From NCBI RefSeq assembly GCF_029633865.1, contig NC_079230.1, forward strand, positions 28,055,089 to 28,119,088: a stretch of 64,000 nucleotides of DNA, in the 5' to 3' direction. Each line of letters begins with the position of its first letter. Within the stretch, counting starts at the first letter, position 1. Below are positions 7,344-40,832 of this stretch, piece by piece. The notes below the pieces were generated by a model, which saw only the letters and a program-made list of their open reading frames with translations, did no database searches and was not told where the DNA came from. The DNA comes from Lampris incognitus. Its lineage: Eukaryota; Chordata; Actinopteri; Lampriformes; Lampridae. Both the position numbers and the translations under genes were made by a program.

Positions 7344-10300
7344 GTCAGTATGGACGAAAACACACATTGGGTTGTTTGTTTGTTTGTTTGTTTGTTTGTT
7401 TTCCCATGAATTTAGCGGGGTAGTTTGGTTTCCAGGGTAACGACGTGTCCTACTTGCATGGAGTCGGACAAACTCATGGATACCTGTTTACTACAAGGTA
7501 CGCTGAGCGACGAGTTTAGCCTAGCTTAGCTCAATTGCTGGACGTCAACTGGGATCATAAGCATCTCTCAAAAGAAGGGAAAGCCTTTAAACTTCACCAA
7601 AAAAACAAAAACAAAACAACGGATGGCTAGTCTAAAAAAACTAAATGTTGTAATTCGTGTATGTATAAAATTGGTGATTTTCACTACAAACAATGAAAAG
7701 AGATGATACCAAACTTGCTAAGTTTACGCTTCCTCCTAGCTGGACTAGCTTGACTTTCCATTCGCTTTCCAAGTCTCCCAACAAGACTGAATGAGAGTGA
7801 ACTATAATTACATTTTTAGGATTTTGTGTATGCTTGTGGAAACATTGATGAAGAATAAAATAACGCTTGGCTAACAGGTAAACGGTATTAAGGATTCGCT
7901 CCGGGGAAGGTGTGTTTCTCCTGTGGGAAGCGGTGCTCGTCAGACGCCCAGCAGTTGAGCTTAGCTAGGCTAAACCTAGCTGGCTTAGATAGCCTAGCTT
8001 AGCTTAAGCTAGGCTAAACCTAGCTGGCTTAGCTAGCCTAGCTTAGCTCAACCTACCTTTAAACCGCACGGGGAAATAAACAGGTTTCCATTAGTTTGTC
8101 TGACTCTGAAAAAACGAATCAATGGTAAACAAATATTAGATCTGTGGTAAAATTGATGATCTGCAGGCTGTTATAGTTGAATTAATCCTGTTTATAGTTT
8201 CCTTCCGTGGTCATAATTTCTCTTTAGCATGTCTTAATTATGACGAGGTGGTGTTGCCAAAATCTTATCAATATTTTTGATTGACTGTCTCTATTGATAA
8301 TGTGGCTATATTATGTGGGTGACTATCAGTGCTTTCACAAGATATTTACACAGCAGTAAATGTTGATAAATGATCATTAGTAATGTGGACGTGATGACCA
8401 AGCAGGTAGAGACGTTCATTGTTCATGTCACTAAAACAGTGGAATAAGTTCGGAAAACTCTCACTTGACTGTAATGCAGCCTTTAACCAGGGAATGTCAA
8501 CATTTAAGTTATATCACCAGATTACCACAATCAGACAACACACCTTTAAGTCCAGGGAATGTCAACATTAGATTAGATTAGATTGTTGTATTAGCAACAC
8601 AACCAAGGCCGGTGGAATTTGGTTTCGGTACACGTTAAACTCTGCAGCACAATACATACATGGACAACAGCGGATCACGAACAACACAGTTACACATTTA
8701 ACATTTAAGTTATATCTCCGTATTGCCAGAACCACGATCCCACAACACACCTGGTTTTATATCAACATATCTATATATTTTTTTTCCACCCTTTTTCTCC
8801 CCAATTGTACCTGGCCAATTACCCACTCATCCGAGCTCTACCGATCCGGGGAGGGCTGCAGACTACCACATGCCCCCTCCGATACATGTGGAGTCGCCAG
8901 CCGCTTCTTTTCACCTGACATTGAGGAGGTTCACCAGGGGGACGTAGTGCGTGGGAGGATCACGCTATTCCCTCCCAGTTCCCCCTCCTCCCTGAACAGG
9001 CACCCCGACTGACCAGAGGAGGTGCTAGTGCAGTGACCAGGACACATACCCACATCTGGCTTCCCACCCGCAGACACAGCCAACTGTGTCTGTAGGGACG
9101 CCTGACCAAGCTGGAGGTAACACGCGGATTCGAACCGGTGATCCCCGTGTTAGTAGGTAATGGAATAGACCACTATGCCACCCAGATGCCCGTTACATAT
9201 CAACATATCAGTTCGAATTAGGGACCTTCGGTGAAGCATGAAATGACACCGGGACTCATCTTTGTTTCCTCAGTTGTATCTCTTCATTGAAAAAGTGTGT
9301 TTGTCTGCTTTCCCTGCAGGTTCATAGGAGTGTGTGTGCACGAGGGACAGCTCCACGCCCTCACAGAGGTAACACACTCTCAGTTTAATCTGCTGATGGA
9401 GCGGAAGTGTCTTGTAGTGGAAACCACAAAACGCCGTGTTTCAGAATGGAAACCATAATCACTTCATTGGCTGATGACTGCAGTTGTTTTGCGGGACGTT
9501 TGTGTTTGTGGCATTGGTGCGGGGACGTATTGACAACTAACAAAGTCCACACTGACACACATGGCACAGGAATGAATGGGGCCCCGAGCGTTGTGTAACA
9601 GCACAGGGTCACGCATACAATAGACAATAGACAGAGCACCAAACACATCTCTCCACATACACACAAAAAAAGTCAATCAATATAAACAACTACAACAACA
9701 GAGCACAGAGTCCAGTAATGCAACGAGAGAGAATGAAAGAAGAGGCTGGAAGTCAGCTGGAATAGTGTTTGATTTTTTCAAACAATATCTAATTGGGGGA
9801 AAAAGCAGCATTACATGGTATACAAACAGGAAAAAAAAGAAGTATTTTTTACAGCGGTTGGTGAACCCAAACCTAGTTTTCCAACCCAACCCATCACACA
9901 GACCTCTTCCACAATGAGTATAATATAATATCCATTATCCAAACTGCTTATCCTGCTCAGGGTTGCGGGGATACTGGATAAATAATAAATAAAAATAATA
10001 ATTAATAATAATAATGGAGAAATAATATAAGATTGTATGATAAATAGAAATAATAATAATAACAATAATGTAAAAAATAAAATAATAATTTAAAATAATA
10101 ATAATAGAGACATAATATATGATTGTATATGTGCAAACACAATATGACTGCAGTTCTGTACTATATAAGGGTTCTAAGGGGAACTGGGTGGCTAATGGAC
10201 AGCACCTGTACATATTATGGACAGACATGATGCATATCACAGACACACATGAAGTATGTTATACATTGATATGGTAAAACCAGTTTTGTCTTTTGCCATT

Positions 10301-32800: not shown

Positions 32801-35800
32801 CTCCTATTAAACTATTTATGGTTGTCATATACTGCCCACCAGGGTGTCAACTGAGGAACTTTGTAATTGAACTAGACATGTTACTTTCAGCCATTCCTGA
32901 TGATGACACAAAACTGATTGTCATGGGAGACATGAATATCCATACTAACAAAACCCAAGCAGCTGACATCCAAACCTGCTCACAACCCCCCTCCCCCACC
33001 CCTGAGTCCATGGTTTACTGAAGTCATCAGAGAGCAAAGGGTGGAACTCAGAGCAGCAGAGAGAAAATGGCGTAAATATAGAGAGCCTACTGACCTCAGT
33101 AACAGTAAGTCTCCTTGCATCATTCTCCTTAAAAGCTGCTCAGACCACTTACTATCGGAACAAGATCTGTGGTACCACAGATGCTCGGAGAATATTCTCT
33201 GCTTTTAACTCACTCCTCAATCTGCCTCCTCTTCCACCTTCCACTCTGCTCACTGCAGACATATTAACCCCGTTTTTCTTACTGATAAGGTCTCTGCCAT
33301 CAGTAACCAGTTCATCTGAGCCTGACCATCTCAGTCTGCAGCTGCCAGCTAACAGAGCCGCACTCTCCTCATTTTCCCCTCTGACTGAGGAGGAAGTCTC
33401 CAAACTTCTGCTGGACTCTCGCCCCACTACTTTTCCACTGGACCCAATACCATCCAACCTTCTACAGACCAATTCCACCACACTTGACCCCGCAGTCACA
33501 TTACATTTACATTACAGTCGTTTAGCCGACGCTTTTATCCAAAGCGACTTACAATAAGTGCATTTAACGTAGGAAATCAGGAAAACTACTAGTCATCAGA
33601 GGTCATAAGTGCATCTTCTCACTAAACAAACATCTAAGAGCAAAACCAGTGCTAAAGTAAAAATGCGAGAAAGAGATCCTTTTTTTTATATAAATGAGTG
33701 AAAACAATAAGTGCTACGAGCAAGTCACACACATTATCAACTCTGCACTAAGAATGGGTGTGTTTCCCACCGCATTTAAGCAAGCTTGGGTCACCCCGCT
33801 GCTCAAACACCTACACTCAACCCAGCCCAGGTTGAAAACTACAGATCTGTTTCACTCCTGCCCTTCTTGTAAAAAATACTTGAGCTCACAGTCTTTAACC
33901 AAGTCTCTGAATTCCTTTCTGAGAATAACCTGTACTGCCCAAACCAGTCTGGCTTTAAGCGAGGGCACTCTACCAAGACTGCACTCCTGTCGGTAATGGA
34001 ATCACTGCGTTCAGCTAGAGCTGCTGGTCAGTCCTCAGCTCTATTGTTGCTTGATCTGTCAGCTGCCTTTGACATGGTTAACCACCAAATCCTCCTCTCC
34101 ACACTCACTGATCTTGGTATCTCAGGAACTGCCCTCCGCTGGTTCATGTCCTACCTCTCAGGGAGATATTTTAGAGTATCTTGGAGGGCTGAAGTGTCCA
34201 AACTGCACGGTTTATCCGCGGGATTCCTCAAGGGTCAGTGCTTGGTCCCCTTCTATTTTCAATATACGCCACCTCACTCGGTGCCCCCGTGGTTTCTCAT
34301 ACCATTGCTATGCTGATGATACCCAGCTCTTCCTGTTGTTCACACTGGAGGATTACACAGTCTTGGCTCAGATCTCATAATGCCTTGCCGATATATTGGC
34401 ATGGATGAAAGAACGAATTAAACTTAACCTCTCTAAGACCAAGCCTTGTCATACCAGCCAGTCCCTCTTTACAACAAGAGATCAGTATCTAGCTCGAATC
34501 AACCCAACTCATGTCCACAAAGGTTCACGAGGCCTCAATTGCTTGGTTGTGTCGAGTTGCCCTATACAACGTAAGGAAGATCATACCCTACCTGTCTGAG
34601 CATGCAGCACAACTCCTGGTACAGGCTCTCATTATATCCTGCATTGACTACTGCAACTCCTTACTGGCAGGCCTCCCTGCATGTACGTTCAAACCTGTGC
34701 AGATAATCCAAAATGCAGCAGCACGTCTGGTCTTTAACCAGCCCAAAAGAGCCCGTCACCCCACTGTTCATATCCCTTCACTGGCTCCCAGTCGCTGCCT
34801 GCATCAAATTCAAAACCCTGACACTCGCTTACAAAACAGCAACTAAAACATCTCTTGATGCATGCTCAATAATCCAGGTAAGAAAATCAAAGAAGGTTGA
34901 ATCAGTTCATCTGGATACAACACTTATTAAGTTAAGTGCGAGGAGGATTGCTGTGACTTATACATTGGGGAAACTAAACAGACGCTGGCCAAAAAAATGG
35001 CACAACACAGGAGAGCCAACACATCAGGCCAGGACTCTGCAGTCTACACCCATCTACAGGCCAGTGGCCACTCTTTCAAGGATGAGGATGTGCACATCCT
35101 TGATAGGGAGGAATGCTGGTTTGAACGGGGAGTCAAAGAGGCCATCTATGTTAAGAGGGAACGACCATCCCTGAACTGGGGGGGGGGGGTTCTAAGAGTA
35201 CATTTGTCACCATCTTACAATGCTGTGATTGCAACTATTCCCAAACCCTCTGTGAATAGTACACATGGCCATCGAAACTGTAGTTAATGGTCACACCCAT
35301 ATTTGCACATGAAACTGGTCATTGGTTTCGGTCATTATACATCTGTCACCATCTTAGAATGCTGCGATTGCAACATTCCCAAATCCTCTGTGAGTAGTAC
35401 ACATGGCCATTGAAACTCTAGTTAATGTCCCAGCCATATTGACATGAAACTAGTCATTGGTTTCGGTCATTATGCAACTGTATTGTACTGTATTGCTTAT
35501 GAGGAGTGGGGATACCTGCAGTCAGTTTAGACCAGCGGTGACTAACCATGTGCCATGGAGAGCCATATGTATGCAGGTTTTCATTCCAACCCGACTCCAC
35601 ACCTGGTGATACATTCTTCGTCTTTGGTTGAAGGGTTGCTAATCAGTGAAATCACCTGGTGTCGAGTCCAGCTGGAATTAAAACCTGCATACATATGGCT
35701 CTCCTTGGCACATGGTTACCCATCCCTGGTTTAGACTGAAGATGTCACTTAGTTGAGTGATGAAACATATCTGTCAATAAACGTTGTATCCAGATGAACT

Positions 35801-36807
35801 GATTCAACCTTCTTTGAGCAACTAAAACAACTCCAGTCTACCCGAACTCCCCAATTCAGGTCTGCGCTCTGCCAATGAAAGGCGCCTGGTATTGCCACCA
35901 CAACAGGGCACTAAGTTTCTAGCTAGACTCTTCTCATCTGTAGTTCCACCATGGTGGAACAAGTTACCAAAGTCTGTTCGATTGGCAGAGTCCCTCTCAA
36001 TCTTTAAGACTAAAGGCCCAGCTCTTTCACTTTGCTCTGCACTTGATGGACTGATGGGGGAAAAAAATCTGCTTCTATGCATTGCCTCTGTACACTGCCT
36101 GTTGGCACCTACATCCTATCTATCGGACTCAAACTTAGCTTTACGGCACTTACTTGTCATGTTCTCTCCTGCCTAGATCCTTTCTTGTGTTGTATCAGCT
36201 CTCAGATGTGTCACTTTGGATAAAAGCATCTGCTAAATGAAATTGTAAATTGTAAGTAAGTACAATTAGCAAGAATAGTAAATAAGAATTGATAATTAGT
36301 ATTACTAATGATTGATTATTGGTTCTCACATGTTCAAAATCAATCAATCGATTGATCACAAATGTGTGTTTGTTCTCCTCAGGGATTCTGCTCGTCTTTA
36401 TGGGAGTCGGACTTTGTTCTTTGTTCATCTTTCCACTCATCCTCCTCTTCCTGTTCAAGAAGAGAAAATGTGCACTGACCAATGAAAATCAACCCAAAAC
36501 TGTGGTATTAATTTTTTTTCTTCTTCCTCGTCAACTGTTTCTGCCTGACCTGTTGCTTACACTCCCGAAATGAGTAACACAGTTGATGTCCTTGATTTTT
36601 TTTTTGTGTCATGCTATCTATATTTTTAATCAGGCACCCCCCCAGGACCCAGTGTCTTTGGTTCCTCTGTCCGCGGTCCCAGCCGACCCATCTGACATCC
36701 ACCTTGAACTCCTTGATGACTCCTCCAGCAGCCCCAGCCAACAGGACCAGGGCTCACACCAGGGGGATGGGTACAGCAGCAACTCGCTCCGGTGCGACTC
36801 CATGTAA
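23835..36807 (+). CDS. class II cytokine receptor (CRFB family), complete, 326 aa
   Basis: Exons are 23835-23886, 24839-24959, 25445-25614, 27615-27793, 31841-32003, 36383-36504 and 36634-36807. They join into one frame, and the intron phases 1,2,1,0,1,0 are those of class II cytokine receptors. Order: signal peptide (residues 1-17), first FNIII module (about 20-115), second (about 116-228), membrane span 230-253, KKRK, and a 73-residue Ser- and acid-rich tail with one Tyr (GDGYSSN). Glycosylation sites NAT, NDS and NFS are visible. The family binds interferons or IL-10-type cytokines at the cell surface and signals through JAK/STAT. The first module (EWCVRISSRRC...VRVG) recalls IFNGR1, while the short tail recalls accessory chains such as IL10RB or IFNGR2. 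The ortholog is therefore left open. Confidence 0.88.
23936..24648. mobile_element. hAT-like MITE with a second nested MITE
   Basis: Outer ends CAGTGGTTCTCAATCAGGTC and GACCTGATTGAGAACCACTG. Inside, AGTGGGCGATATGG (about 24038) and ATTGCCCAGTCC (about 24588) look like the ends of another hAT-type MITE. It occupies most of receptor intron 1. Confidence 0.8.
24839..24959 (+). CDS. CRFB exon 2: first FNIII module, N-terminal half
   Basis: 121 bp. Encodes VESLDLGCLLRWDCPHASPN and ATYTVQTKTQG, the LxW...P..ATYTVQ pattern of class II receptor modules. The acceptor aacctcgcag at 24837-24838 is the one that joins in frame; a stronger-looking cattcag at 24751 leads to a stop. Confidence 0.8.
25445..25614 (+). 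CDS. CRFB exon 3: first FNIII module, C-terminal half
   Basis: 170 bp; one base completes Gly, then GPWRDVEWCVRISSRRCDVT through MIRVGVRLGPGATVWTEPRK to FDYSDL. The Cys pair and the VRV strand match this family. Donor CTGA|gtcagt. Confidence 0.88.
25615..27614. other. receptor intron 3 with a local duplication
   Basis: CAGGCATCAGCCACACAGCT at 25961 and CGGGCATCAGTCACGTATCT at 26251 start two related blocks, each followed by CTCTGCA.CTCTCCATAC. (TAA)n lies near 26315-26345. 26380-26680 looks like a promoter or 5' end of an unidentified element. No exon supported. Confidence 0.4.
27615..27793 (+). CDS. CRFB exon 4: second FNIII module, N-terminal half
   Basis: 179 bp. FSPPSVSVSLDGDRLAAQVQ begins the second module. 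It has a Cys-rich insert (CAASRRCSQGRCC) and then WTTVTLYNQLNDSDHQ. Phase 2 in, phase 0 out. Confidence 0.87.
28256..29640 (+). pseudogene. RTE-like LINE fragment split by an insertion
   Basis: 28256-28330 encodes MVLYRKMVDCSLRVGGELLP then QVK. The frame resumes at about 29035 with VKEFKYLRVLFTSEGRMEQE, then KELSWKAKLSIYWSIFIPAL and [20 protein letters not shown], and breaks near 29410. Same family as 22358-23330. Confidence 0.88.
28332..29034. mobile_element. insertion splitting the LINE, identity unknown
   Basis: Starts with (GT)n and then GC-rich DNA with a short frame (MSLEDIRLRELTPTEKQAVA). It ends AAGAAGATGGTCATCATCGG just before the LINE resumes. It resembles a retroelement 5' region but the family was not recognised. 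Confidence 0.45.
29641..31122. other. receptor intron, no recognised feature
   Basis: Ordinary-looking single-copy or ancient repeat DNA. Short frames here lack domain motifs. Confidence 0.4.
31123..31383. mobile_element. hAT MITE, 261 bp, near-perfect 8-bp duplication
   Basis: CAGTGTTTCCCAACCCAGTC and its inverse GACTGGGTTGGGAAACACTG are the ends. GTCTATGC (31115-31122) and GTCTGTGC (31384-31391) match 7 of 8. A short CCTCAAGGAACCCC repeat is duplicated inside the left end. Confidence 0.9.
31395..31775 (+). mobile_element. tRNA-derived SINE, copy 6 (head truncated)
   Basis: Begins near CTGTGTTACCTTGGTCGG, after the B box, so the pol III promoter is gone. Ends CAATTGGGGAGAAAAAAGGG, 60 bp before receptor exon 5. 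Confidence 0.88.
31841..32003 (+). CDS. CRFB exon 5: second FNIII module, C-terminal half
   Basis: 163 bp from SRTVWTQEILSYVEFSGLAP through GQNYCAVANFSFPSF to RPQCVQTAPES. The GQNYCAV strand and the final Cys are the conserved closing disulphide of class II receptors. Confidence 0.9.
32004..32789. other. receptor intron, AT-rich, nothing recognised
   Basis: Includes an ATTATT-rich stretch at 32640-32750. Confidence 0.4.
33501..33722 (-). mobile_element. SINE-like insert sharing the L2 3' tail
   Basis: AGTCACA duplicates flank it (33494-33500, 33723-33729). On the - strand it ends with TTGGATAAAAGCGTCGGCTA, essentially the tail of the surrounding L2 (36212 onward). This is the hallmark of a SINE moved by L2 machinery. 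Confidence 0.8.
34888..35819 (+). mobile_element. Penelope-like element 3' fragment with inverted ends
   Basis: Frame pieces MAQHRRANTSGQDSAVYTHL, QASGHSFKDEDVHILDREE and GVKEAIYVKRERPSLNW are the end of a GIY-YIG endonuclease region. AAGGTTGAATCAGTTCATCT at 34894 and its inverse at 35795-35814 bound the unit. A hAT MITE is inserted at 35533. The PLE itself lies inside the L2. Confidence 0.88.
35533..35728. mobile_element. hAT MITE, 196 bp, with perfect 8-bp duplication
   Basis: CAGCGGTGACTAACCATGTG at left; CACATGGTTACCCATCCCTG at right. GTTTAGAC is duplicated at 35525-35532 and 35729-35736. It sits in the Penelope tail. Related ends occur at 42926 and about 49140. Confidence 0.93.
36383..36504 (+). 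CDS. CRFB exon 6: transmembrane segment
   Basis: 122 bp. ILLVFMGVGLCSLFIFPLIL then LFLFKKRKC: about 24 hydrophobic residues followed by a basic stop-transfer cluster. Donor GTG|gtatta. Confidence 0.9.
36634..36807 (+). CDS. CRFB exon 7: cytoplasmic tail and stop
   Basis: 174 bp with TAA at 36805-36807. It begins APPQDPVSLVPLSAVPADPS, then an acidic/Ser stretch ending DGYSSNSLRCDSM. PVSLVPL is a possible box1-like JAK contact. Only one Tyr is present, so few STAT docking sites are expected. Confidence 0.85.
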   Translation, partial: APPQDPVSLVPLSAVPADPSDIHLELLDDSSSSPSQQDQGSHQGDGYSSNSLRCDSM

Positions 36808-38170: not shown

Positions 38171-38405
38171 GAGCATAAATTAACAATATTTAGCATTCAA
38201 TAGAATGTCCCCCCCCCGCCATTTTGTTCAGATACTGAAGCACTTTCAACTTGGCTCAGCGCGCCCGAGTGCATAAAAAGAAGCTCGCCGTGGGCGGGAC
38301 CGGTACCGCCACAGGATGTAGTACCAAATACAAGTTCCTGTTCCGGTGTAGGTAGCTGAGGTGACCCCCGCAGACTGGGAGAAAATAATGTGACGACCAC
38401 CGATG

Positions 38406-38515
38406 TGTAGACTGGCTAGCCCTTGGCTAACGACTCGGACCTTTTAGTTGACTGGTTAGCGTAGTCGCCCGTGGTGCGGGAGACGCGGGTTCGCTTCCCG
38501 GCTGCCCCCTGGATT
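38406..38515 (+). repeat. diverged relative of the TRIM LTR with tRNA-like body
   Basis: TGTAGACTGGCTAGC...CTAACGACTCGGACCTTTTA then GTTGACTGGTTAGCGTAGTC follows the same order as the LTRs at 38710 and 38949. A good B box (GGGTTCGCTTCCC) follows. It is about 200 bp upstream of the TRIM and may be a fossil LTR of the same lineage or a related tRNA-like SINE. Confidence 0.55.
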
Positions 38516-38709
38516 CACAAATCCACCAGCATCTTGAAATAGCCCAACTCTCGCTAGACTCTGACGTTTTTGAACGTGTTAGGGCAGAGGAGGTCAGCCG
38601 GTGTCTGGATAATTTGTTGTTCCTGATGTTGGAGGTAAATTTGAGTCCATGCAGTCACATGACCGAGCTGTTGTTGGGGGTAGTCACTTCTGTAAAACTT
38701 GTTTCATAT

Positions 38710-38845
38710 TGTAAACTACTAATAAGACCCGTTAGTCCCCTAACTAACGGATCTGACCCTTTAGCCGAGCGGTTAGTGATGTCGCCTTGTGGTGCAATAC
38801 ACCTCGTATCGAATCCCGCACCGGGCAAGAAAATAACCGGTTACA
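38710..38845 (+). repeat. TRIM 5' LTR
   Basis: tRNA-like part 38754-38827 has A box TAGCCGAGCGG (matches TRGCNNAGYGG) and a weak B box GTATCGAATCC. TGACCC and GGGCA can pair as an acceptor-like stem with one bulge, and CGCC-TTGT-GGTG can fold as an anticodon-like arm. Confidence 0.85.
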
Positions 38846-38846
38846 T

Positions 38847-38863
38847 TGGTGGCAGCGGTGGGA
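38847..38863 (+). promoter_or_regulatory. primer-binding site matching tRNA-Leu 3' end
   Basis: TGGTGGCAGCGGTGGGA is complementary over 17 nt to the 3' end of vertebrate tRNA-Leu(AAG) including CCA (...TCCCACCGCTGCCA-CCA), as recalled from human tRNA. It starts one base after the LTR, the normal place. Confidence 0.82.
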
Positions 38864-38948
38864 ACCGGAAGTGTGCAGATCCTCAGAAGTCTCTTCGGAG
38901 CGCGGTAATAACAAAGCGCGAGGGCGAGCTTCCGGGGAGGGTGACGAC

Positions 38949-39084
38949 TGTAAACTACTAATAAGACACGTTAGCCCCCTAGCTAACGGGTCTGACCCTT
39001 TAGCCGAGCGGTTAGTGACGTCGCCTTGTGGCGCAGTACATCTCGTATCGAATCCCGCACCGGGCAAGAAAATAACCGGTTACA
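38949..39084 (+). repeat. TRIM 3' LTR
   Basis: Same 136 bp as the 5' LTR with 8 substitutions. Its tRNA-like part is 38993-39066. It retains more CpG sites (GACGTCG, GGCGCAG) than the 5' LTR, whose changes look like CpG decay. Confidence 0.85.
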
Positions 39085-39088
39085 ATAT

Positions 39089-40400
39089 CAGCAAATATTT
39101 GCTACCACGTGGTTCTTCATTTCCAGCCACACTTAGGCGGGAGTATTTCTGCATGTTTACTTTGTAGCTGGAGGCTCTTTCCGTTTCTATGTGTCATTGT
39201 TGTCGGTACTTCAGCTTTTTGCAGGTGTTTGTATCCCCTGCCGTGTTTTCACCCCCCCCCCCAAACTAAAAAATGTCGCCCCTGCAGAACAGCTTCCCCC
39301 TGACGGCTGATCGGGTCTTCAGTGTCCAACACGTTTCCGACCGTTCTCCAGCGCATCACATCGACGGCCCTTCAGATCTCCAGGGGAGTGGAATATGAGT
39401 CAGCACCGCCTGCAGGAGGTCAACAGACTTGACGAGTGAGGACTTGTAATGGAGGAGAAACTGTTTATTTTCTATTTCGCAGCTCCGCGAGGAACTATTT
39501 CTATTTTTCGGTGTTTTTACGCATTGTAGTGCTGGGATTCAGCGCTGCTCAGCGGGCCAAGTCCAAATAGTTAAAACGGGACACTCACCAACACTGTGCT
39601 CTGTCCAGCCCATCCATCCTCGGGGCGGTGAGAGGAGGTTATTTTGTTCTTTTCTTTGACTTGATAAGTTGTGACTCACAGTCGCACCGCTGGCGGTCCA
39701 CTGTCACTTACCCGTGACCGGCACCCGATTCTGCTTCTTGCGTGAAGGCAAAGGGGGGAACATGTTGCTCCCCGTCTTGCTGGTGGTGCACTTTTTATGC
39801 CCCATTAGAGAGCCTGGGGGTTAACAGGGGGGGGGGGGGCTGTAGGTGTTTGGAGAGGCAGAAAAGACACAAACAGTTTAATAGCGAGAGCCATTTCTAC
39901 CCCACAGGGACCTCAGGGGTTATCCAAAGCCCCCCACCCCCACCCCGTCCAGGCCATAACCGCAGCGTTGGGAGGAATGATGGGTTTAGTTTGTAGGGTT
40001 AGTGAGTCATGTGGCATGTGTTACCACCTGACTGTGTGACGGAGAGCTGTTCCCTCCAGCATCCACAAATCTCCATTTCAACATAATCCCATGTTGTTGT
40101 TGGTTTTGTTGTATTTGCGCTACATTTTCTGGGAAATCCCTGCTGAGATGGACCCAGTCTTGCGTCGTCCATTGTGCGAGCGTGTGTGTGTGTGTGTGTG
40201 TTGGCAGGCTCTTTTGCACAGAGTGTACTGTGGGGTACTGATCACTTGATGCTTGACCTTGAAGTTGATCTTTTTAAGATCGTTCCTTCTGTTCTGTGTG
40301 CAGCCATGTTTAAATGTACATTTTCATGCGGATTACAAAGTAGAACAAACGGGCCCAAAATGAACATTTTAAAATCTTACTTGCAAGAATTTGGCTTTTG
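39089..40400. other. intergenic DNA
   Basis: No gene seen. C-runs at 39252, a G-run at 39826-39839 and (GT)n at 40182-40201 are the only low-complexity parts. Confidence 0.4.
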
Positions 40401-40401
40401 G

Positions 40402-40832
40402 GGGGCGTCCGGGTAGCGCGGCGGTCTATTCTGTGGCCTACCAACACGGGGACCGCCGGTTCGAATCCCCGTGTTACCTCCGGCTTGGTCGGGCGTCCCT
40501 ACAGACACAATTGGCCGTGTCTGCGGGTGGGAAGCTGGATGTGGGTATGTGTCCTGGTCGCTGCACTAGCGCCTCCTCTGGTCTGGTCTGGTCTGGTCTG
40601 GGAGGGGGAACTGGGGGGAATAGCGTGATCCTCCCACGCTCTACGTCCCCCTGGTGAAACTCCTCACTGTCAGGTGAAAAGAAGCAGCTGGCAACTCCAT
40701 ATGTATCCAAGGAGGCATGTGGTCGTCTGCAGCCCTCCCCGGATCGGCAGAGGGGGTGGAGCAGCGACCGGGACGGCTCGGAAGAGTGGGGTAATGGGCC
40801 GGATACAATTGGGGAGAAAAAAAGAGGGGGGG
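40402..40832 (+). mobile_element. tRNA-derived SINE, copy 7 (reference copy)
   Basis: Nearly complete, about 430 bp. The tRNA-like head GGGGGCGTCCGGGTAGCGCG holds the A box. GCCGGTTCGAATCCCCG is an excellent B box. The body has CAATTGGCCGTGTCTGCGGG, TGTCCTGGTCGCTGCACTAG, CTCCTCACTGTCAGGTG and CTGCAGCCCTCCCCGGATCG. The tail is GGATACAATTGGGGAG and A/G runs. A (GGTCT)n expansion at 40579-40600 is private to this copy. Pol III promoters plus a unique body mean a SINE, not a tRNA gene. The name of the family was not recognised. Confidence 0.93.

Follow-up and report, generated by a model that had tools for sequence, protein, structure and literature searches.

A miniature LTR retrotransposon family with a tRNA-like unit in its LTRs, probably of the Helenus kind, in the opah Lampris incognitus

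The DNA analysed here, called the window below, is a stretch of 64,000 nucleotides from the opah Lampris incognitus (contig NC_079230.1, positions 28,055,089 to 28,119,088 of the forward strand). Among its reading frames, the one at 19929-21104 matches TESK2 of Lampris incognitus with 100% identity over 93% of the frame, and the next best match, among the best 120 of 598 listed, is that of Polymixia lowei at 72%. Further downstream lies a short unit with the build of a miniature LTR retrotransposon (TRIM), which occupies 38706-39088 together with its target duplications, the element proper being 375 bp long. Its parts are the following:

38706..38709, no strand: 5' target site duplication ATAT, read from the sequence
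38710..38845, + strand: LTR1, 136 bp, TGTAAA...TTACA, from repeat comparison
38846..38948, + strand: interior between the LTRs, 103 bp
38847..38863, + strand: primer binding site TGGTGGCAGCGGTGGGA, 17 nt, for tRNA-Leu (AAG or TAG), by complementarity
38888..38900, + strand (the same strand): 13-nt identity to the variable arm of tRNA-Leu (AAG/TAG), by sequence comparison
38934..38941, + strand: purine run GGGGAGGG, putative PPT, read from the sequence
38949..39084, + strand: LTR2, 136 bp, from repeat comparison
39085..39088, no strand: 3' target site duplication ATAT, read from the sequence

A preliminary description of this DNA had reported two equal repeats. They are equal in length, and their starts lie 239 bases apart, but their sequences are only 94.1% identical, with 8 differences of which 7 are transitions. 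At a typical substitution rate, the 5.9% difference gives the window copy an age of probably a few million years. The TG...CA termini, the 103-bp interior and the ATAT on both sides were found as described. The same is true of the primer binding site, which begins one base past LTR1, at a border with the motif TTGGTGGCAGCGGTGGGA, and is complementary at 17/17 positions to the 3' end of tRNA-Leu, CCA included; it sits just inside the 5' LTR, as in other TRIMs. The AAG isoacceptor, originally named alone, and the TAG isoacceptor have a common 3' end. The first 18 bases of the interior are identical in 33 of the 39 independent copies described below. The purine run noted before LTR2 also exists, although it does not adjoin the repeat directly: 7 bases (TGACGAC) separate its end from LTR2, and it is therefore not an abutting PPT. 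The ending of the interior, GGGGAGGGTGACGAC, is exact in 25/39 copies.

The 13-nt identity to the variable arm, kept in 37/39 copies, involves the same tRNA-Leu that we presume to be the primer. Since the stretch contains a UUCG-loop hairpin, convergence is a possible cause of the likeness. With regard to coding capacity, open frames of 111-169 amino acids run across the element, and the two of them that were searched (16 and 15 candidates) had no relatives at E 1. The unit accordingly has the size and coding status of a TRIM, with two LTRs, a length of 375 bp (<1000 bp) and no recognised mobility protein in the two frames searched.

When the 1.48-Gb opah genome was searched with the element, 4,088 candidates emerged at first look, and 40 of them were scored. 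All 40, the window copy included, were near full length at 94-100% identity, while the 41st entry was a fragment. One locus (L071) was left out as a likely segmental duplicate because the 8 bases on either side of it equal those of L046, which leaves 39 independent copies, the window copy and 38 others. They are a biased sample, since candidates were ranked by their similarity to the window copy. Duplications of 4 bp are perfect in 25 of these copies and have one mismatch in 11, two in 1 and three in 2; that is, 25/39 are perfect and 36/39 lie within one mismatch, against 5.9% and 37% in a null built from the flanks of different copies. Duplications of 5 bp were seen in 0/39. The perfect duplications have a central TA in 21 of 25 cases, compared with 7% TA in the flanks. 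The two LTRs of one copy are 91.1-97.8% identical (mean 95.5%) and LTRs of different copies 95.1%, a near equality of the kind that a burst from a small number of almost identical sources should produce.

Exact counts point to a large family. A 20-base core of the LTR, lying over the TTT and box A described below, occurs 5,929 times genome-wide, and the junction of LTR and primer site 1,528 times; the reversed controls occur 0 times in both cases. The first 40 regions with this 20-mer on contig C1 (2.67-8.35 Mb) were used as a second sample. They hold 51 chains, namely 22 of the form LTR-interior-LTR, 25 single LTRs (among them at least 4 diverged fragments of related lineages and 1 cut by a region edge), 2 LTR-interior and 2 three-LTR tandems. 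After 20 chains were dropped, 31 with complete ends remained, of which 15 have perfect duplications and 27 have at most one mismatch (null: 2.2% perfect and 19.8% within one mismatch). For the single LTRs the corresponding figures are 6/14 and 13/14. A central TA is present in 8 of the 15 perfect duplications, a weaker preference than in the 39-copy set.

These dispersed copies with 4-bp duplications, which also flank solo LTRs, argue for a transposed TRIM family, as the preliminary description had proposed; tandem arrays without target duplications, the pattern that it named as speaking against a TRIM, are not what the sampled copies show. The duplication length agrees with the 4-6 bp of TRIMs and the 4 bp of animal Helenus elements (25/39 and 15/31 perfect). 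The three-LTR tandems, which make up 2/51 chains, could suggest a satellite-type or other tandem repeat, or a SINE that carries a duplication by chance. Such a reading is hardly credible in view of the dispersal with 4-bp duplications, the primer site adjoining the LTR and the single LTRs with duplications of their own.

The number of LTRs can be estimated from the exact counts. Of the 22 full copies in the second sample, 9 keep the 20-mer in both LTRs and 13 in one, which puts retention at ~0.58 of LTRs and, with 5,929 exact 20-mers, the genome at ~10,000 LTRs. The 39-copy set keeps the 20-mer in 57/78 LTRs, from which an estimate of ~8,000 follows. Sampling of 200 kb at fixed positions of contigs C1 and C2 yielded five hits, 1 to this family and 4 to related lineages. 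Some further observations concern individual loci. The 100 junctions listed, all on C1 and reaching up to 98.7 Mb, are unevenly spread, with 1 between 56.7 and 92.0 Mb. An inverted LTR-interior / interior-LTR arrangement of the element is found in L085 (448-852), and the interiors in L093 (449-811) and L113 (436-790) are 83% and 80% identical to that of the window, possibly representing a subfamily.

Each LTR carries a tRNA-like unit, with the following features:

38760..38762, + strand: TTT in LTR1, its sole run of >=3 T, the third T being base 1 of box A
38762..38772, + strand: box A TAGCCGAGCGG in LTR1, exact in 69/78 LTRs
38768..38827, + strand: tRNA-His(GTG)-like stretch of LTR1, limits carried over from the LTR2 alignment
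38806..38816, + strand: box B-like GTATCGAATCC in LTR1, 9/11 to the consensus
38999..39001, + strand: TTT before box A in LTR2, read from the sequence
39001..39011, + strand: box A TAGCCGAGCGG in LTR2, read from the sequence
39007..39066, + strand: tRNA-His(GTG)-like stretch of LTR2, from alignment to a tRNA panel
39045..39055, + strand: box B-like GTATCGAATCC in LTR2, read from the sequence

The unit and its box A had been recognised in the preliminary description, where they were ascribed to a class II tRNA (Leu/Ser). The tRNA likeness stands, but the class does not. Comparison was made with a panel of 11 human tRNAs, in which boxes A and B are 43-45 apart in class I (8 correctly parsed entries, tRNA-Gly being left aside as misparsed) and 53 apart in two class II tRNAs; the distance in the LTR is 44. 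The best panel match of LTR2 is tRNA-His(GTG), with a score of 24.5 and an alignment that takes in the anticodon region. Shuffled sequences reached at most 17.5 (300 mononucleotide shuffles) and 20.5 (2000 dinucleotide shuffles), so that 0/2000 attained the observed score. Furthermore, tRNA-His is the best match for 78/78 LTRs, with a mean score of 21.9 as against 16.0 for the runner-up, and an origin from a class II tRNA is rejected on both spacing and best match. Box B was scored against the consensus GGTTCGANTCC; 2/11 positions depart from it. The LTRs thus contain tRNA-derived sequence with boxes A and B, the mark of Helenus elements, box B being degenerate.

The opah element is, in our view, likely a Helenus-type TRIM whose LTRs bear a tRNA-like unit and which is driven by RNA polymerase III (pol III), primed by tRNA-Leu and moved in trans. 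Transcription by pol III is an inference. In tRNA genes pol III starts 12-17 bases upstream of box A, and in the 5' LTR of the element it would likewise start ~12-17 bases upstream of box A and then read through the interior into the 3' LTR. Minus-strand synthesis would be primed by tRNA-Leu, and the nascent DNA would transfer to the corresponding sequence in the 3' LTR. The enzymes needed, namely reverse transcriptase, RNase H and integrase, would be supplied in trans, most likely from Gypsy elements, as Kojima (2024, PMC10886601) has proposed for animal Helenus.

A check for a pol III terminator was negative for the LTR, with runs of four T (T4) in 0 of 78 LTRs and in 0 of 39 interiors, so that the examined copies contain no canonical terminator. 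The first run of T4 or longer past the window element lies 132 bp downstream, and a pol III transcript of a copy lacking T4 would enter the flank unless a weaker signal stops it. Transposition could proceed despite such read-through, since the RNA would still find a match to its 5' end inside the 3' LTR.

The lack of a T4 terminator and the off-consensus box B would also fit an ordinary TRIM or an internally deleted Gypsy element transcribed by RNA polymerase II, in which the tRNA likeness stems from an ancient insertion of a SINE or tRNA that has no function today. Several other results go in the same direction. Neither ARAGORN nor Rfam calls a tRNA at the element, and the Rfam hits in 38300-39200 are all under the gathering score and outside it. 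The tRNA-like units fold no better than shuffled sequences, 59/200 shuffles folding as well as that of LTR1 and 102/200 as well as that of LTR2. Within the family, conservation offers no contrast either, since box A (98.5%) is hardly above the rest (97.3% overall, 94.3% in the box B region). Two related LTR-like lineages are of help in weighing this account. The first, F2, comprises a 150-bp LTR-like stretch in L034 (2800-2949) that is flanked by ATAT at either end; its relatives have ATAG in the case of L112 and ATAT in that of L126. The other, F3, is present in L099, L124, L135 and, in degraded form, next to the element in the window:

38388..38519, + strand: degraded F3 LTR-like stretch, with putative limits and no clear target duplication

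This last stretch has a score of 38, a value that 1000 mononucleotide shuffles did not approach beyond 30, and is 86% identical to L099 over 109 nt. As no full-length copy of either lineage was seen, the F2 and F3 stretches are presumed to be LTRs. The segment with TTT and box A agrees with the window family at 14/15 positions in each of three F2 LTRs, where it is the best kept segment (the next best reaching <=11/14), and at 11-12/15 in five F3 LTRs, where it does not rise above the preceding segment (10-12/14) and in single cases is no better than positions 1-36 or box B. The idea of a box A conserved better than anything else in all related LTRs consequently holds for the three F2 and fails for the five F3. 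A TTTAG at box A, as CTTTAG or TTTTAG, is present in 8/8 aligned F2 and F3 LTRs. The retention in F2 and the occurrence of the unit in three LTR-like lineages speak against a functionless insertion, although the presence of the unit in F2 and F3 is partly a matter of ascertainment because those lineages were found by it; the unremarkable box A of the five F3 LTRs favours one. On balance, we regard transcription by RNA polymerase II with a defunct tRNA likeness as rather unlikely. Three units of the related lineages were scored, and their best matches are tRNA-Asp, Gly or Thr, not His. The motif GTGACGAC at 38389-38396 had been considered as a common interior end and was rejected, since the comparison with L099 suggests that it is the start of the F3 stretch.

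If the element is transcribed by pol III, as preferred here, the ends of its RNA become of interest, and the LTRs contain a structure near the predicted start:

38725..38754, + strand: hairpin in LTR1, ahead of the predicted start, z -3.14 (61 nt) and -4.88 (38 nt)
38964..38993, + strand: hairpin in LTR2, z -2.13 and -3.28

The outer stem of the hairpin ends 5 nt ahead of the TTT. Given the position of hairpin and TTT around the start, the hairpin would be transcribed only in the 3' LTR, where the two together might act as a conditional pol III terminator and leave a short R of ~15-18 nt. The placement and z-scores of the hairpin in the window family suit this idea, as does the TTTAG at box A in 8/8 related LTRs, and in the pol III assays of PMC9278858 a hairpin 0 or 7 nt (not 18 nt) before T4 enhances release. 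The same assays require a T-tract, even T4 being essentially non-functional without structure, while the run in the LTR has three T only. Moreover, in four stretches of the related lineages the hairpin does not reach significance (z -0.89 to +0.65), and only 1/10 of its pairs has a double change. The difference between the two window LTRs at one pair, T27-A34 against C27-G34, was considered as covariation and set aside, since T-A occurs in 1/78 LTRs and looks like chance. A conditional terminator of this type appears improbable. Its R may be compared with the 18-bp terminal duplication of Cassandra RNA cited in Kojima (2024, PMC10886601), the available part of which gives no start or end for Helenus transcripts. 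If it were true, the placement of hairpin and T run across the start would let both LTRs share promoter and terminator with only the 3' copy terminating. It would also set a minimal R region for TRIMs of the tRNA type and account for the T run abutting box A in all three opah LTR-like lineages.

TRIMs with tRNA-like LTRs have been published as Helenus, so the kind is already known. According to Kojima (2024, PMC10886601), Helenus elements are TRIMs with tRNA-derived sequence in their LTRs from fungi, animals and a plant; their described hosts include fungi, molluscs, wasps and groups of fish other than that of the opah, and those of animals have 4-bp duplications, with vertebrate primer sites for tRNA-His, Leu or Lys. 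The opah element resembles them in its length (375 bp within a range of 311-1263), tRNA-like LTR unit, 4-bp duplications, high copy number, tandem arrays, solo LTRs and tRNA-Leu primer site (PMC10886601), and agrees with them in all features tested but one, the purine run being set off from LTR2. For fish, the table of that paper has coelacanth, Acipenseriformes, Cypriniformes, Siluriformes and Gonorynchiformes, with no Lampriformes or other acanthomorph, and its fish alignment uses tRNA-Val, whereas the opah LTRs score best with tRNA-His. For the zebrafish Helenus LTR-11_DR it gives 5,575, which is a count with 90% cut-offs, as opposed to the ~8,000-10,000 opah LTRs, which are an estimate. 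What is new is the host order Lampriformes, the thousands of copies and the two related LTR-like lineages. The opah elements plausibly form a separate family. They extend tRNA-promoter TRIMs to an order that is not among the fish groups given for Helenus and are a natural set for studying how pol III-driven LTR elements make the repeated RNA ends needed for reverse transcription. Such families can also inflate tRNA-like annotation.

TRNA-derived SINEs (SINE2) have a similar tRNA-like head with boxes A and B, but they lack LTRs, a primer site and integrase-type duplications and are moved by LINEs. SINE2 as a possible source of the LTR unit is a proposal of Kojima (2024, PMC10886601), who also draws the parallel to Cassandra (TRIMp3). 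The preliminary description had likewise seen in the opah element a fish tRNA analogue of Cassandra; the likeness holds, whereas its novelty as a kind does not, given the published Helenus. Cassandra similarly has a small pol III gene sequence in both LTRs, is non-coding and is moved in trans. It differs in that the sequence is 5S rRNA instead of tRNA, that the hosts are plants and that transcription has been reported (PMC10886601, PMC7215508, PMC10853983). For another animal TRIM, from Echinococcus, the published text (PMC4558846) contains TGGTGGCAGCGG, with which the tRNA-Leu primer site of the opah element also begins. No other account of such elements in fish appeared among the titles and abstract beginnings listed in literature searches.

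Exact-pattern scans were extended to other contigs. In viral contigs three scans had 0 hits and two others hit 8 and 3 contigs, and prokaryote contigs gave 18 hits. In the 40 best BLAST rows the similarity between these loci and the element spans no more than 17-21 nt, and ARAGORN, run on 15/29 of them, called three tRNAs, none at a hit.

Other repeats were noticed in the window. Matches to the UnaL2 LINE 3' element lie at 33512-33565 (- strand, 52.5 bits) and 36197-36246 (+ strand, 39.2 bits), the gathering score being 55. At about 40392-40490 there is a different tRNA-like unit ending in GGTTCGAATCC and followed by repeated downstream sequence, which looks like a tRNA-derived SINE family represented several times in the window; similar reading-frame phrases were seen by eye near 1524, 15713, 31318, 49339, 50711, 56417 and 59258.
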